In this document: positions 8,132 to 19,314 of the stretch, one piece after another
How positions within the stretch are numbered: position 1 is the stretch's first letter
Layout of the letters: every line of letters starts with the position of its first letter
Source of the DNA: Candidatus Omnitrophota bacterium
Lineage (GTDB): Bacteria > CG03
Reading direction: 5' to 3'
Length of the DNA stretch: 38,231 bases
Assembly (NCBI GenBank): GCA_013791745.1
Contig: VMTH01000041.1
Coordinates: 1-38,231 of the forward strand
Notes under the pieces: generated by a model
Told to the model about the DNA's origin: nothing
Seen by the model: the letters and a program-made list of their open reading frames with translations, nothing else
Database searches by the model: none
Program-made: the position numbers and the translations under genes

Positions 8132-9139
8132 TCACTTTCCCTGCGAAATATAGCGGTCGAGCCTCTCCATCTTATCGGGGTTTCCGAGAACAAGTATTTT
8201 ATCATTCGCCTCCAGCAATGTGGCGGCGTCGGGATTATAAATAAATCTGCCCGTGAGCGCCTTTTTGATAGCTATCACAACCAGTCCCGTGTTTTTGCTG
8301 ATCTGACTTTTGGCAAGCGTGTAATTGAGGAATGGGGATTTATCCGGTATGGACATCTCTTCTATTCTCCATTCCCCCTCGTTCTCCTTGAGCATTATGT
8401 CGAGAAAGGTCACCACATTCGGCCGCAGCGCCGTTGAGGCCATTCTCAAACCGCCGATCTTCTGCGGCGACACCACGGCATCGGCTCCCGCCCTTTTCAG
8501 CTTTGCTTCCGCTTCTTCTTCAACGGCTTCAGCGACAACCTTGATCCTGGGGTTGAGGCTCTTCGCCGATATCACAACATACATATTCATGGCATCACTG
8601 CTGAGGCAGGACAGCACCGTTTTGGCTTTTTCAACACCCGCCTCTATGAGAACATCGTCCTGGGAAGCGTCGCCTATGATATACCTTAGATCGGGAAGCG
8701 TTTTTTTAATCCTCTCCAGGTTCTTCTCGTCCTTTTCTATGACGACGAAATGCTGCCTTGCCTGGTAGAACTCACCCACGATCGCCTCGCCGACGGGCGA
8801 AAGGCCGCATATTATGTGATGCCCTTTCATGTTTTTTATGGTCTCCTTCATCTTCTGCCTCCTTAAAACATTTCCCACTTCTCCCTGCAGTATCAGGGAT
8901 GTAAAAAGACCGGCCAGGCCCGCCACGAGCGAAAAGCCGAAGAGTATCAGCACCATCGTGAATATTTTACCAGCGGGGCTCAAAGGATGCACCTCGCCGA
9001 AGCCGATGGAGGAAAGCGTTATTGAGGTCATATAGAGGGAATCCATTAGATTCCATTTCTCTATCAGCATGTAGCCGAAAGTACCGGCGGCTATCACGAA
9101 AAGCACCAGGAAAATAATCGTCGCGATTTTTCTGTTCAT
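8132..9139 (-). CDS. Two-TM potassium channel with RCK (TrkA-N/TrkA-C) domains
   Basis: This 335-residue protein has TM1 (about 7-27), a pore loop with filter SIGFGE (44-49), and TM2 (about 58-85). A cytoplasmic RCK domain starts at GHHIICGLSPVGEAI (106-120), and a TrkA-C-like lobe runs from about 245 to 335. The layout is that of MthK-like ligand-gated K+ channels. The filter reads GFG instead of the common GYG, followed by E instead of D; both changes are known in functional K+ channels. Its ATG overlaps the waaA stop codon (ATGA), so it is coupled to an envelope gene, although the functional link is unclear. Confidence 0.92.
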   Translation of the reverse strand: MNRKIATIIFLVLFVIAAGTFGYMLIEKWNLMDSLYMTSITLSSIGFGEVHPLSPAGKIFTMVLILFGFSLVAGLAGLFTSLILQGEVGNVLRRQKMKETIKNMKGHHIICGLSPVGEAIVGEFYQARQHFVVIEKDEKNLERIKKTLPDLRYIIGDASQDDVLIEAGVEKAKTVLSCLSSDAMNMYVVISAKSLNPRIKVVAEAVEEEAEAKLKRAGADAVVSPQKIGGLRMASTALRPNVVTFLDIMLKENEGEWRIEEMSIPDKSPFLNYTLAKSQISKNTGLVVIAIKKALTGRFIYNPDAATLLEANDKILVLGNPDKMERLDRYISQGK

Positions 9140-10392
9140 ATATTATTCAGCAGCAGATCTTTTATGACGACCGTGTTGCGGCGCAGGGCGCCTTTGAGCA
9201 TATCCAGTTTTTCAAAAGCCGCCTCGGCTTTTTTCTCTCTCATTTCCTTTGAAGAAGCGAGCTCCCTAAAAGCCTTTGCCAGAGAAGCTCTGTCCGGAAC
9301 AACAAAAAGCTCATCTTTCAGTATATCAAATTCCTCGCTGAAATTTCCCGTGTGAGGGCCCACAACAATGGCTTTTTTCCTCCGGACAGCCTCAACAAAA
9401 TTCTGACCGCCGTGAGGCACGAGTGAACCGCCGACAAAACAGATATCCGAAATCCCGTAAATGCCGTCGAGCAACCCTATCCTGTCCACAAGCAGAAAGC
9501 GTGAGCCGGGCGTAAAACCGCCAGAGCGGCTGAAGCGGGAACAGGGTATTTTTCTCCGCCTGAAAACGCGCTCTATTTCTCTTACGCGATCTATGTGCCG
9601 GGGAGCTATTATGCAGTAAACATCCTTTCCCAGCGGGAGAACGGCGTCTATAACGGCCTCCTCCTCACCCCTGTGAGTGCTGCCGGCGCTTATGGCCAGA
9701 GCCGCTTCCGGAACAGCGTAATCTTTCCGGCTGACTCTGGCGGCAGACGGCCCGGCGACAATATCGTATTTGATATTCCCCGTCACCGACACACGCGCGG
9801 GATCGGCTCCCATGGCGATAAACCTGTCAGCGTCTTTCTTCGTGCGGGCCGATATCACTTCTATTTTTTCGAGCATCATCCGCGTCAGAGCCTTGATAAG
9901 TTTGTATTTCGGAAAACTCCTGTCAGAAACCCTGCCGTTTACAAGCGCTATTTTAGAGTGACGCGAGGCCGACTCTATGAGATTGGGCCAGAGCTGGAGC
10001 TCTATCAGCACCACGAGGGCCGGAGCGACTTTTTTCATAAAACTTCGGGTGATGAAAAAAATATCCACGGGGGCGTAGTACACTCCGGTAAAAGCGCCGG
10101 AGGTCTTCGCGAGCGCTCTGCCTTCCGGAGTCATGGCAAAAAGATATAGCGGACGGCCTGTGTCTTTGAGCTCGGCGGCAAGCACAAGCGCCAGTTTCAC
10201 CTCACCCACGGAAGAGGCCTGAAACCATACTCCGCCGGAAATGAAATCGGCGCCGGGAAGATAGAAGCGCTGGTGGAATGTTCCCCTGCTCCTTTTAATA
10301 TACCGGTAAAGACTGGGCAGGGCCGCCAGAAAAAGCAGCGGCGGAAGAAAAAGAAGCGTGACGGTGTTGATGATTATAAGCGTCAGGCCCAT
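9136..10392 (-). CDS. waaA: 3-deoxy-D-manno-octulosonic acid (Kdo) transferase
   Basis: This is a 418-residue protein with an N-terminal membrane anchor (about 5-30) and a GT-B fold. SSVGEV (60-65) contains the family's catalytic glutamate at residue 64. IELQLWPNLIESA, the TGNIKYD turn, IIAPRH and GGSLVPHGGQNFVEA are further WaaA/KdtA hallmarks. The enzyme moves Kdo from CMP-Kdo to lipid IVA at the inner membrane, so the organism is expected to make Kdo-bearing lipopolysaccharide. It starts 3 bp after the unknown 160-aa gene and overlaps the channel gene by 4 bp. Number of Kdo residues added cannot be predicted. Confidence 0.95.
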   Translation of the reverse strand: MGLTLIIINTVTLLFLPPLLFLAALPSLYRYIKRSRGTFHQRFYLPGADFISGGVWFQASSVGEVKLALVLAAELKDTGRPLYLFAMTPEGRALAKTSGAFTGVYYAPVDIFFITRSFMKKVAPALVVLIELQLWPNLIESASRHSKIALVNGRVSDRSFPKYKLIKALTRMMLEKIEVISARTKKDADRFIAMGADPARVSVTGNIKYDIVAGPSAARVSRKDYAVPEAALAISAGSTHRGEEEAVIDAVLPLGKDVYCIIAPRHIDRVREIERVFRRRKIPCSRFSRSGGFTPGSRFLLVDRIGLLDGIYGISDICFVGGSLVPHGGQNFVEAVRRKKAIVVGPHTGNFSEEFDILKDELFVVPDRASLAKAFRELASSKEMREKKAEAAFEKLDMLKGALRRNTVVIKDLLLNNI

Positions 10393-13139: not shown

Positions 13140-13643
13140 TCAAAAAGCCGAAGCGATGTTGGAGTAAACGGAACTGCTGTAAGCGGAGCCGTTGAGGGTC
13201 ACTTGCACACGGCCTCCCGATAAAACACATTTGAAAGTGTTTTTCCTGTAAAGCGCTCCGGCCAGTTTTTGTATGAATTCTTCCTCAAAGGCATATATAA
13301 CAGCCTCAACCGAGTGCCTTTTGAAAAGTTTCGCCAGAGCCAGAGCGGGATCCTTCCCCTGAAGGAACACGAACACCGAAAAAATATCTTTGCGTGAACG
13401 GAAAAACATTATCTTTTTCTCGGACGGCTCTTCGCAGTCAGCCCACAAAGCTTTCTGACCGTCAACCGCTCCGGCGTACAGATCGGGTTTGAAAGTAAAC
13501 CCGGCCTTACCGGAAAATCTCAGCCTGCCTGAAAACATTTCATGGGCCAGAAGTTTTAAGACAACGCGGACGCGGGTCTGGCCGCGCTTCTTCTCCACAA
13601 CTATCTTTTTTCCGCGGCCTGTAAAAATATAATTATCTTTCAT
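13140..13643 (-). CDS. YaeQ-like protein, possible PD-(D/E)XK nuclease fold
   Basis: This protein is 167 residues from the chosen ATG at 13641-13643. The motif RVRVVLKLLAHEMF, then FKPDLYAGAVDGQKALWADCEEPSEKKI, and a C-terminal beta segment (FKCVLSGGRVQVTLNG) resemble the YaeQ family in order and spacing. That family has a PD-(D/E)XK-like fold, but its function is poorly defined. I recognise this by eye only. The frame stays open upstream to an ATG at 13784, through the inverted-repeat element; I prefer the shorter start because family similarity begins there. It lies downstream of the ceramide synthase candidate and may share its transcript. Confidence 0.6.
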   Translation of the reverse strand: MKDNYIFTGRGKKIVVEKKRGQTRVRVVLKLLAHEMFSGRLRFSGKAGFTFKPDLYAGAVDGQKALWADCEEPSEKKIMFFRSRKDIFSVFVFLQGKDPALALAKLFKRHSVEAVIYAFEEEFIQKLAGALYRKNTFKCVLSGGRVQVTLNGSAYSSSVYSNIASAF

Positions 13644-13662
13644 TTGCTGATGTCTTCGGGTA

Positions 13663-13783
13663 TGACGACGGCAGAGCTGCCCGGAGCGGGCCATATGAGT
13701 GAGGGGTTTGCCAGGCGCTCCGAGCGAATTGGCAGCGAGCCGCACTCGCGAGCGGCCGTCTACGGGCAGCTCTGCCGTTATCA
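13663..13783. repeat. 121-bp nested inverted-repeat element
   Basis: The ends are perfect 16-bp inverted repeats, ACGGCAGAGCTGCCCG (13668-13683) and its complement (13763-13778), which extend to 21 bp with two mismatches. Inside are further dyads: GCCCG/CGGGC around 13679-13691, TGCCA/TGGCA, and GCCGC/GCGGC near 13738-13755. It occupies most of the 165-bp gap between the ceramide synthase candidate and the YaeQ-like gene. It could be a structured RNA, a palindromic repeat family or a degenerate miniature transposable element. I saw no second copy in this window. Confidence 0.75.
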
Positions 13784-13808
13784 TTGGCGGAACGCGGGCT
13801 GCATGCGC

Positions 13809-14921
13809 TCACAGAGATTTCTCGAAGATCCGGTATCTTTTGTAGGCTTTGCCGGAGAGCATATCCGCCGCTCGCATCATCATCACATTGTCCTCCAGCA
13901 CCCATGAGAATTCGCATTCCTTATAGCCCTTTTCGAGCGCCTCTTTAAGCGACCGGTAATAAAGAATGCTCTCTATCCCCATCTGATGATAACGCTTCTT
14001 CACCCCCATGGTGAGAACGCGTATGCTTTTGATTTTCTTGAAATAATAAAAAAACCTGAGCGCCGCAAGCGGCGTCAGCCGTCCCCGGATCTTTTTAAGC
14101 GCCTCGTTGATATCCGGCAGCGTCATTATAAAACCCGCCGGATCCCTGCCGTAAAAAGCGATCTGCAAAAGCCCCGGATCCACGATACGTTTGAGTTTAC
14201 CCGCCATATAAAAAATTTCATCGTCGGTGAACGGAACAAAGCCCCAGTTCTTTTCCCACGCGGCATTGTAGATGTCCATAATGATCTTCACTTCGTTTTC
14301 AAAATCATCTTTGTTGATGGGCCTGACGCTTATGGCGGGGTTCCTTTTCAGCACTCTTTCGGAAATGGACGCGAGGCGTTTCGCCGGCACCCTCCCGGCA
14401 TCCGTTACAAAAGCTATTAGGTCTTTTGCCTTGTAGAAACCCGCGGATGAGATGAGATCCGCGTAATATGGGGGGTTGTAGGGCATCATTATCTTCGCCG
14501 GCTCATCCGGGCCTTCCACAAGAAGCCCGCACTCGTCGTTTGTGGACGGGTTCATGGGCCCCCTGACGATTGTCATGCCTCGGGAGCGGAGAAAAGACAG
14601 GGCCGCGTCAAAAAGGATCCGCGAGGCGGCGGCGTCCTCCCCGCATTCAAAAAAACCGAAAAAACCGCATTTCTCGCCGTGAAATCTGTTGTGATTCTCA
14701 TCGATAATGGCGGCGATGCGGCCGATCGTTCCTCCGCCCGGTCCGCTCACCAGAAAAAGTGCTTTTTCAGAGTGCTTCCAGAAAGGATTTTTATCAGAAA
14801 ACATTTCTCTCATTTCTGAAATGAGAGGCGGAGCCCAGTTGGGGTCTTTTTTGTATAAAGCGTAGGGAAATTCTATGAAACGCTTTAATTCATCGGGCGT
14901 TTTAACCTGCGCCAGTTCCAT
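13809..14921 (-). CDS. bcerS: GNAT-like acyltransferase, candidate bacterial ceramide synthase (bCerS)
   Basis: This 370-residue protein starts at the ATG at 14919-14921, with GGATG 9 nt upstream; a start 11 codons earlier is possible. The N-terminal FIEFPYALYKKDPNWAPPL and the central RGPMNPSTNDECGLLVEG (about 120-137) followed by MMPYNPPYY (145-153) are characteristic of a large uncharacterised-looking GNAT-type family. Its Caulobacter member was shown to N-acylate 3-ketosphinganine. Here it overlaps the 3' end of the serine palmitoyltransferase candidate by 37 bp, which strongly supports the same role. It should attach a second acyl chain to the long-chain base. The enzymatic call is inference from family motif plus gene neighbourhood. 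Confidence 0.8.
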   Translation of the reverse strand: MELAQVKTPDELKRFIEFPYALYKKDPNWAPPLISEMREMFSDKNPFWKHSEKALFLVSGPGGGTIGRIAAIIDENHNRFHGEKCGFFGFFECGEDAAASRILFDAALSFLRSRGMTIVRGPMNPSTNDECGLLVEGPDEPAKIMMPYNPPYYADLISSAGFYKAKDLIAFVTDAGRVPAKRLASISERVLKRNPAISVRPINKDDFENEVKIIMDIYNAAWEKNWGFVPFTDDEIFYMAGKLKRIVDPGLLQIAFYGRDPAGFIMTLPDINEALKKIRGRLTPLAALRFFYYFKKIKSIRVLTMGVKKRYHQMGIESILYYRSLKEALEKGYKECEFSWVLEDNVMMMRAADMLSGKAYKRYRIFEKSL

Positions 14922-16186
14922 AGATTTTTCATCCAGCCATTGAGGGCATTCCACATTTTTGTCATGCGTTGCGGTTTCGGCGTCACTTTTTCGCCGCTTC
15001 CTTTCTGAATTATCCCGAGTTCTTCCCCCGCCTCTTTAAAAGCCGCGCAGGCTTCATCAACATGTTTTTTCGTGTGAGAAGCCATCATACTCACTCTTAT
15101 AAGCGCGCGGCCCGGAGGCACGGCGGGCGAAACCACGGGCGTGACAAAAACGCCCTTGTCAAAAAGGCTCTTCCACATCTTGAAAGCCGTCATGTCATCA
15201 CCTATACCGACAGGAATGATCGGCGTTGTCGTCGATCCGGTGTCAAACCCTATGCTTTTCAGTTTATCTCTCATATATTCGGACACCTTCAACAGACGCG
15301 CTATTCTTTTCTTGTCCTTTTTGACTATTTCAAGAGCTTTGATAACCGACGCCACATTGGCCGGAGAGGGCGCGGCGGAAAAAATCAGAGACCGGGCGTG
15401 ATGCTTTATGTAATGGATAACATCCTCATCCCCCGCTATGAAACCGCCGGTTGATGCGAAAGATTTTGAGAATGTCCCCATGATGAGGTCCACCTCGTCG
15501 GTCAAACCAAAATGGTCACAGGTGCCGCGGCCGCATCGTCCGAGAACGCCCACGCCGTGAGCGTCGTCAACCATGAACCTGGCGCCGTACTTTTTCGCGA
15601 TGGGCAGCATCTTATCAAGCGGAGCGACATCGCCTTCCATGGAAAAAACGCCGTCAACTATAACAAGTTTTCCGGAGTCTTCCGGAAGACTCTTCAACAC
15701 ATGCTCAAAATCCTCTATGTCGTTATGCTTAAACCTCACAAGCGTGCCAGCGGACAAACGGCAGCCGTCGAGAATTGATGCGTGATCGAATTTATCGGCT
15801 ATTATGTAATCTTTTTTCCCCACCAGAGCTGATATCACGCCGAGATTCACCTGCATGCCGGTGGTGAAGACAATGACCGCCGGTTTTCCCAGATATTCGG
15901 CAAGCTCTTTCTCCAGCTGCTCATGTATATCAAGCGTGCCGTTGAGAAAGCGGCTACCCACGCATCCCGTGCCGTATTTCTGGGTTGCCATTATGGCGGC
16001 ATTTTTCAGCCTCTGGTCGGTGGCGAGGCCGAGGTAACTGTTTGAGCCCATCATTATCATGCGGCGGCCCTCGCATGTCACCACGGCATTCTGCCCGGAT
16101 TCCACAGTGTGGAAATAGGGATAAAGCCCGGCCTTCTGCACCTCGCGGGCTATGGTGAAATTTTTAACCTTATCAAAAAGTTCCAT
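14885..16186 (-). CDS. spt: Serine palmitoyltransferase candidate (alpha-oxoamine synthase family)
   Basis: This 433-residue PLP enzyme starts at the ATG at 16184-16186, fixed by GGAGGAG 6 nt upstream; a GTG/ATG further up would bury that site. Cofactor residues include DHASILDG, VDDAHGVG (about 206-213) and the Schiff-base lysine at about 241 in GTFSKSFASTGG. That lysine motif is the serine palmitoyltransferase form. Glycine C-acetyltransferase and BioF usually have GTxGKAxG instead. It should condense serine with an acyl thioester to 3-ketosphinganine. It has its own promoter and is followed directly by the GNAT-type ceramide synthase candidate. A basic, Trp-rich tail (about 400-433) is unusual and might bind membranes. 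Confidence 0.85.
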   Translation of the reverse strand: MELFDKVKNFTIAREVQKAGLYPYFHTVESGQNAVVTCEGRRMIMMGSNSYLGLATDQRLKNAAIMATQKYGTGCVGSRFLNGTLDIHEQLEKELAEYLGKPAVIVFTTGMQVNLGVISALVGKKDYIIADKFDHASILDGCRLSAGTLVRFKHNDIEDFEHVLKSLPEDSGKLVIVDGVFSMEGDVAPLDKMLPIAKKYGARFMVDDAHGVGVLGRCGRGTCDHFGLTDEVDLIMGTFSKSFASTGGFIAGDEDVIHYIKHHARSLIFSAAPSPANVASVIKALEIVKKDKKRIARLLKVSEYMRDKLKSIGFDTGSTTTPIIPVGIGDDMTAFKMWKSLFDKGVFVTPVVSPAVPPGRALIRVSMMASHTKKHVDEACAAFKEAGEELGIIQKGSGEKVTPKPQRMTKMWNALNGWMKNLWNWRRLKRPMN

Positions 16187-16229
16187 TCGTATCTCCTCCG
16201 GCATTTGTTATGTCACGGCTTCCATGTAA

Positions 16230-16258
16230 ATTAAACAATAAACAAATTTTTCCGTCAA
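16230..16258 (-). promoter_or_regulatory. Sigma70-type promoter of spt
   Basis: TTGACG (16253-16258), a 17-bp spacer and TTTAAT (16230-16235) on the minus strand place the start near 16223. The leader is about 37 nt and contains the strong GGAGGAG site. Confidence 0.7.
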
Positions 16259-16281
16259 GACAATGCATAGCGAAGCCTGAA

Positions 16282-17229
16282 TTAAAGCCAACCCTGATCC
16301 TCATACCATTTCAATGTAAGGGCGGCGCCTCTCTTCAGATCATAGGCGGGATGGAAATCCAGCCCCCTGAGCATGCGCTCCGTATTAACAATCCAGTGCC
16401 CGGCTGTTATCTCTCTCACTTTCTGCGGATTGAGAAGAGCGGTTTTGCGGGTGAAAAATCCGGTCACTGCAAAAAATGCCCCTGCCAGTTTCAAAAAAGG
16501 AGAAGGCACGCGCAGGACACGGCATTTTTTATCTGCCGCTGCTGCAATAGCACTGACGAAACTTTCCTGCGTTTGCGGCTCCGGGTGAGCGAGAAAAAAA
16601 GTGTCGTTCACGCATGTAGAGAACAGGGCTTTCTCTATTCCCGCGCAAACGTCCTTCACATTTATAAAATTAAGGAACCTTTCGCCCGACGGCAGAAAGG
16701 CCAGACCATTCTTCACCATTTTGAAAGTGACAAAAAGATCCCTGTCTCCGGGGCCGTAAACAGCCGCAGGGCGTAAGATGAGATAGGGTAGGGAGGATTC
16801 CCTGACCAGTTTCTCAGCGAGGGCCTTGCTTTTCCCGTAGTCCGACACGGGGCGGGGCTCGTCGCTTTCTTCCGCCGGACGGTTCAACCCGGCAGGCCCT
16901 GACACCGCCTGGGACGAAATAAATATGAATTTTTTCAGGGTTTTTATTTTCTTCGCTTTATTGAGCAGGGCCAAGGTACCCGCCGTATTAACCTCATAAT
17001 ATGTTTTTGAAGGAGCCCGCACCACGGCGGCGTTATGTATTATGACCTCGGCTTCGGGCAGGTCCGGGAGTTCTTCCCGTATATCACCGTAAACCGGAAA
17101 AACATTTTCACCCTTTATGCTCTCAAATTTTTTCCGGCTCCTGACAAGGCAGAAAAGCTCATGTCCTTTCAGATGCTCGACGAGATTTTTTCCTATGAAG
17201 CCCGTCGCGCCCGTTAAAAATATTTTCAT
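16282..17229 (-). CDS. cerR: NAD-dependent epimerase/dehydratase, candidate ceramide reductase (CerR)
   Basis: This 315-residue short-chain dehydrogenase of the extended type has the Rossmann motif GATGFIG (7-13), HNAAVV (65-70), serines 105-106 and the catalytic YGKSK (Tyr131, Lys135). In Caulobacter a member of this broad family, CerR, reduces the 3-keto group in ceramide synthesis. Here the gene lies 95 bp upstream of spt on the same strand, which makes the same role likely but not certain; sugar-nucleotide epimerase activity is the main alternative. No clear Shine-Dalgarno sequence precedes the ATG. It follows proB by 37 bp. Confidence 0.75.
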   Translation of the reverse strand: MKIFLTGATGFIGKNLVEHLKGHELFCLVRSRKKFESIKGENVFPVYGDIREELPDLPEAEVIIHNAAVVRAPSKTYYEVNTAGTLALLNKAKKIKTLKKFIFISSQAVSGPAGLNRPAEESDEPRPVSDYGKSKALAEKLVRESSLPYLILRPAAVYGPGDRDLFVTFKMVKNGLAFLPSGERFLNFINVKDVCAGIEKALFSTCVNDTFFLAHPEPQTQESFVSAIAAAADKKCRVLRVPSPFLKLAGAFFAVTGFFTRKTALLNPQKVREITAGHWIVNTERMLRGLDFHPAYDLKRGAALTLKWYEDQGWL

Positions 17230-17266
17230 TGTTTATAAATGTCGGACCGGGGGGTGCCTACAAATT

Positions 17267-19314
<2,048 letters not shown>

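Follow-up and report, generated by a model that had tools for sequence, protein, structure and literature searches.

Can a compact gene triplet from an uncultured bacterium make ceramide, and is it as special as it first appeared? The locus lies in a DNA stretch of 38,231 nucleotides (hereafter the window) from contig C41, part of a draft genome of 2.0 Mb and 97% completeness that is assigned to a Candidatus Omnitrophota bacterium. An initial annotation assigned three adjacent genes to serine palmitoyltransferase (Spt), bacterial ceramide synthase (bCerS) and ceramide reductase (CerR). Judging from their sequences, the three genes very probably represent the bacterial (dihydro)ceramide backbone pathway. 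This reading builds on which genes are present and in what order relatives keep them, on homology, active-site residues and predicted folds, and on conservation of the promoter.

Gene layout, starts and promoter

On the minus strand, the gene order is obgE, proB, SDR, spt, GNAT, followed by a YaeQ-like gene. Direct reading confirmed the three open reading frames at the positions given in the initial annotation, together with the motifs GTFSKSFAS, RGPMNPSTNDECG, TGATGFIG and YGKSK. The relevant features are:

18334..19305, minus strand: obgE, upstream neighbour, gene order kept in the same family
17267..18337, minus strand: proB, upstream neighbour, gene order kept in the same family
16282..17229, minus strand: SDR gene for a CerR-like reductase of 315 aa, extended SDR with motifs TGATGFIG and YGKSK
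16230..16258, minus strand: spt promoter TTGACG-N17-TTTAAT, hexamers identical in 4/4 same-genus genomes
16193..16199, minus strand: Shine-Dalgarno sequence GGAGGAG of spt, read from the sequence, with AGGAG conserved within the genus
14885..16204, minus strand: spt, serine palmitoyltransferase, listed with 439 aa, top hit in PDB and Foldseek: S. multivorum Spt
14888..14989, minus strand: C-terminal tail of Spt, basic amphipathic WMKNLW helix, in families f1, f2, f5 and f6 of the phylum
13809..14954, minus strand: GNAT-like bCerS, listed with 381 aa, tandem GNAT fold, YghO family
9136..10392, minus strand: waaA, Kdo transferase, Pfam PF04413, E 4e-44

The three reading frames are no chance products, since Spt finds its best PDB match at E 1e-133, the GNAT frame is conserved over its length (26–88% identity) and the order SDR-spt-GNAT is retained in the phylum. 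Within the family of the window, the longer order obgE-proB-SDR-spt-GNAT is kept as well. The order obgE-proB-CerR is shared by the window (16282-19305) and Sphingomonas parapaucimobilis (L039 3100-6321); the proteins are far apart, and either chance or an old linkage may account for it.

Translation of spt probably starts at the ATG at position 16186, behind GGAGGAG, and yields a protein of 433 aa; the ATG further upstream, at 16204, lacks conservation among same-genus genomes. The GNAT gene probably starts at the ATG at 14921 and overlaps with the end of spt by about 37 nt. The promoter proposed ahead of spt was borne out by comparison with relatives, as the four same-genus genomes have unchanged hexamers despite differing lengths of the SDR-spt spacer. 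A generic promoter scanner made no call at this site because it accepts only A as the second letter of the second hexamer. The genes spt and bCerS are probably co-transcribed from this promoter, and their overlap suggests translational coupling; readthrough from proB-SDR is also possible.

Downstream, a YaeQ-family gene (13143-13784) stays beside the GNAT gene within the family. The listed N-terminus of its product consists of a dispersed repeat, so that the true start is probably located further inside. This palindromic repeat of ~110 bp (13662-13792, DNA fold z -4.5) lies between the two genes and has ~14 matches in the same genome; in the same-genus genome G003 there is no room for it at the locus. 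It has the appearance of a small mobile repeat without coding function.

Identity of the three encoded proteins

The best PDB match of the PLP-dependent enzyme was the Spt of S. multivorum with 449 bits, compared to 306 bits for Thermus AONS/KBL, 246 for E. coli Kbl and 227 for the SulA structure 7u7h. Among NCBIfam models, SerpalmtaseCFB was the top family with 558.8 bits, which is under the strict cut-off of 640; the proteobacterial equivalog cut-offs were missed, too (400 versus 500 and 324 versus 670 bits). These thresholds serve annotation and were tuned to particular phyla; they are not criteria of function, and missing them fits a divergent phylum. In a tree of 65 rows, the protein fell inside a clade of 57 rows (support 100/99) with 8guh and 2x8u, representing the two bacterial Spt groups with solved structures; the clade also takes in sequences from Bacteroides, Rhodobacteria and Myxococcus. 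The catalytic Lys, His, Asp, Asn and Arg positions are identical to those of characterised Spt: the PLP-lysine motif GTFSKS as well as Asn52, His138, His213, Lys244 and Arg367 are all found, and Ser81 is kept. An AlphaFold model (pLDDT 90) had 8guh/3a2b as top Foldseek matches with 52% identity and a target TM of 0.96–0.97. Compared to this S. multivorum enzyme (3a2b, 8guh; TM 0.96), which has the same catalytic residues, the window protein has an additional C-terminal helix and carries Val and Ile at the positions of Ala79 and Met271, respectively. An enzyme encoded on a Priestia megaterium plasmid (L080 5001-6221) also falls inside the Spt clade and has neither a GNAT nor an SDR partner nearby; clade membership alone is thus no proof of ceramide synthesis.

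Which amino acid does the enzyme use? Every Spt of the phylum has Val at the position of S. multivorum Ala79, which corresponds to Cys133 of human SPTLC1, a site of disease mutations, and makes a water-mediated contact with the side chain of the substrate. The phylum-wide Val may leave room for use of alanine besides serine. The same enzymes could then start from another first substrate, and the product would be alanine- or glycine-derived 1-deoxyceramides. Besides the replaced side-chain contact, the finding of 1-deoxysphingolipids in anoxic Black Sea waters speaks for this reading. Against it, other Spts, including the solved S. wittichii enzyme, have T, S or N at position 79, and Asn52, His138, Ser81 and Arg367 are all retained in the window protein. 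We regard 1-deoxyceramides as an unlikely product.

The enzyme could instead be BioF or Kbl of primary metabolism that came to lie beside the other two genes by accident. The models for bioF and glycine C-acetyltransferase score high, too (395–397 bits), and no AOS other than the window enzyme turned up in the genome at a threshold of E 1e-20. However, Kbl, BioF and Thermus AONS are placed outside the Spt clade, the window protein has Ala where BioF and Kbl have Thr or Asn, and linkage to GNAT and SDR genes is conserved across many phyla. Tree and residues thus reject a Kbl or BioF identity, which we consider very improbable, and the assignment to Spt made in the initial annotation stands. Sulfonolipid synthesis by a cysteate acyltransferase (SulA/CapA) is scarcely credible: SulA shares the AOS fold (target TM of 7u7h 0.86–0.88) and the logic of N-acylation and reduction, but the sequence is far closer to Spt (449 versus 227 bits), and the diagnostic Lys281 is replaced by Ala in the window and across the Spt clade, which rejects this identity.

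For the SDR, a tree placed 52 Spt-linked SDRs, including Rhodobacterial CerR orthologs and the window protein, in one group (95/99), in which the family of the window forms a long branch; the SDR paralogues of the same genome fall outside. A CerR left out of profile building (L040) scored 219, compared to at most about 140 for the paralogues. CerR of Caulobacter is periplasmic; in the window protein no signal peptide is visible, as its Rossmann motif starts within the first ten residues.

The GNAT-like protein matched no Pfam or NCBIfam family and, by phmmer, no PDB sequence; its assignment was hence made by structure. Its model (pLDDT 95) shows a tandem GNAT fold and matched tandem GNATs at E about 1e-14. 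Among the family members are E. coli YghO, given as the Caulobacter CC_1154 ortholog in PMC9386255, and cluster genes of Roseomonas and Sphingomonas; Caulobacter CC_1154 and CC_1164 were compared via their published E. coli orthologs (PMC9386255). Within the sampled set, the tree yielded a group of 79 rows (99/92) with YghO and Rhodobacterial CerS, set apart from remoter GNATs and with open forks inside. A group of 20 rows around the window protein (87/75, still open) is wholly Spt-linked, while the deep order of the tree is unsettled and the family also has members without spt nearby. Fold and grouping with YghO support the predicted bacterial ceramide synthase of the CC_1154/YghO family. Taken together with the residue table, the three trees bear out the assignment of the triplet to Spt, bCerS and CerR.

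Distribution and comparison with known systems

The phylum is represented by 16 genomes, 13 of which encode an Spt homolog. In the tree, the Spts from 11 genomes cluster together (99/91), which suggests vertical inheritance within the phylum. The 94% complete genome G009 of family f4 encodes an AOS at 39% identity (L188 742-2364), has no GNAT gene and yields no more than a weak SDR match; this AOS is probably not an Spt, and the genome probably lacks the ceramide pathway.

SDR, spt and GNAT genes occur together across the phylum and beyond. Among the best 80 named GNAT loci, a sample biased by its ranking according to similarity to the window protein, Spt was found within the fetched stretch in 56, adjacent on the same strand in 52 and together with an SDR in 43. 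The adjacent Spt-GNAT loci (52/80) cover at least 16 named phyla, so a compact block is ordinary. The main text of PMC11334938 likewise describes Spt-like proteins in 38 phyla from the Black Sea, with the same clade logic and the same three genes often clustered; it names no Elusimicrobiota-labelled genomes. A literature search on Elusimicrobia combined with sphingolipid and Spt gave no match. The initial annotation had presented the compact block as special, which did not hold up, and its claim of novelty was overstated, given that cassettes of this kind are widespread among bacterial phyla. The statement that cerS is always located in a different operon (PMC11324152) does not hold for the 52 adjacent loci, if same-strand adjacency is taken as an operon.

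Caulobacter and Rhodobacterial genomes encode homologous Spt, CerR and CerS in the arrangement aasR-cerR-acpR-spt plus cerS (CC_1165-1162 and CC_1154; E. coli BL21 orthologs including yghO), and lipid A is also present. In contrast, the window cassette has neither acpR nor aasR: it contains no ACP gene, and the gap between SDR and spt measures only 77 bp. Furthermore, bCerS overlaps with spt in one unit in the window, whereas cerS is described as invariably occupying an operon of its own (PMC11324152), and the window Spt lies outside the Rhodobacterial branch and scores closer to Bacteroidota enzymes. Adjacent spt, GNAT and SDR genes as in the window are found in Myxococcus (L131), Chryseobacterium lathyri (L147), Rubrobacter (L041) and Streptomyces (L046); in these four, the reductase gene is located downstream of the GNAT gene, while it lies upstream of spt in the window.

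Proposed route and its placement at the membrane

We infer substrates, reaction order, localisation and lipid product as follows. Spt would form a 3-keto sphingoid base with the help of PLP by condensing a long-chain acyl thioester with an amino acid, L-serine being the most likely one. As there is no dedicated acpR in the cassette, the acyl donor would be acyl-CoA or a housekeeping acyl-ACP. The tandem-GNAT bCerS would N-acylate the 3-keto base and the SDR CerR would reduce the 3-keto group with NAD(P)H, either before or after acylation. The product would probably reach the outer membrane beside lipid A.

An envelope with both lipids had been suggested in the initial annotation. The lipid A part is supported, as the window carries waaA and two GT9 genes (Pfam), and the genome encodes LpxK as well as an LpxC split over two contig ends. 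The supposed novelty of the pairing was not upheld, since lipid A together with sphingolipid is already known in Caulobacter.

The WMxxLW tail of Spt is a new detail and the only unusual feature of this cassette. In most Spts of the phylum, those of families f1, f2, f5 and f6, the protein ends with a variable linker followed by a basic segment with WMxxLW. The motif occurs in 15 of 90 AOS rows, some of which are duplicate copies; Spts of family f3 lack the tail, and an end of similar kind is seen in one Elusimicrobia genome. The Spt model shows a disordered linker followed by a helix (405-428) of moderate confidence. The tail is amphipathic in f1, the family of the window, where its hydrophobic moment exceeds that of shuffled sequences (p 0.003–0.013), and more weakly in G013 (p 0.029), and is not above shuffles in G007, G010, G012 and L094 (p 0.07–0.16). 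We take the tail to resemble the membrane-targeting tails of FtsA and MinD. By this analogy, it is conceivable, at slightly less than even chances, that the helix tethers the soluble Spt of most families to the inner membrane and that the keto base is passed on to bCerS, the peripheral product of the adjoining gene, as an independent bacterial version of membrane-bound SPT.

The sequence evidence as a whole is most likely explained by a complete ceramide (or 1-deoxyceramide) backbone pathway, handed down vertically within a small candidate phylum. The predicted sphingolipid producers thus gain another lineage of phylum level, small and uncultured, with vertical inheritance of spt indicated there. 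The cassette is compact enough for a single plasmid in E. coli, and its conserved tail offers a concrete hypothesis, open to experiment, for how sphingolipid synthesis could be localised to the membrane in a bacterium.
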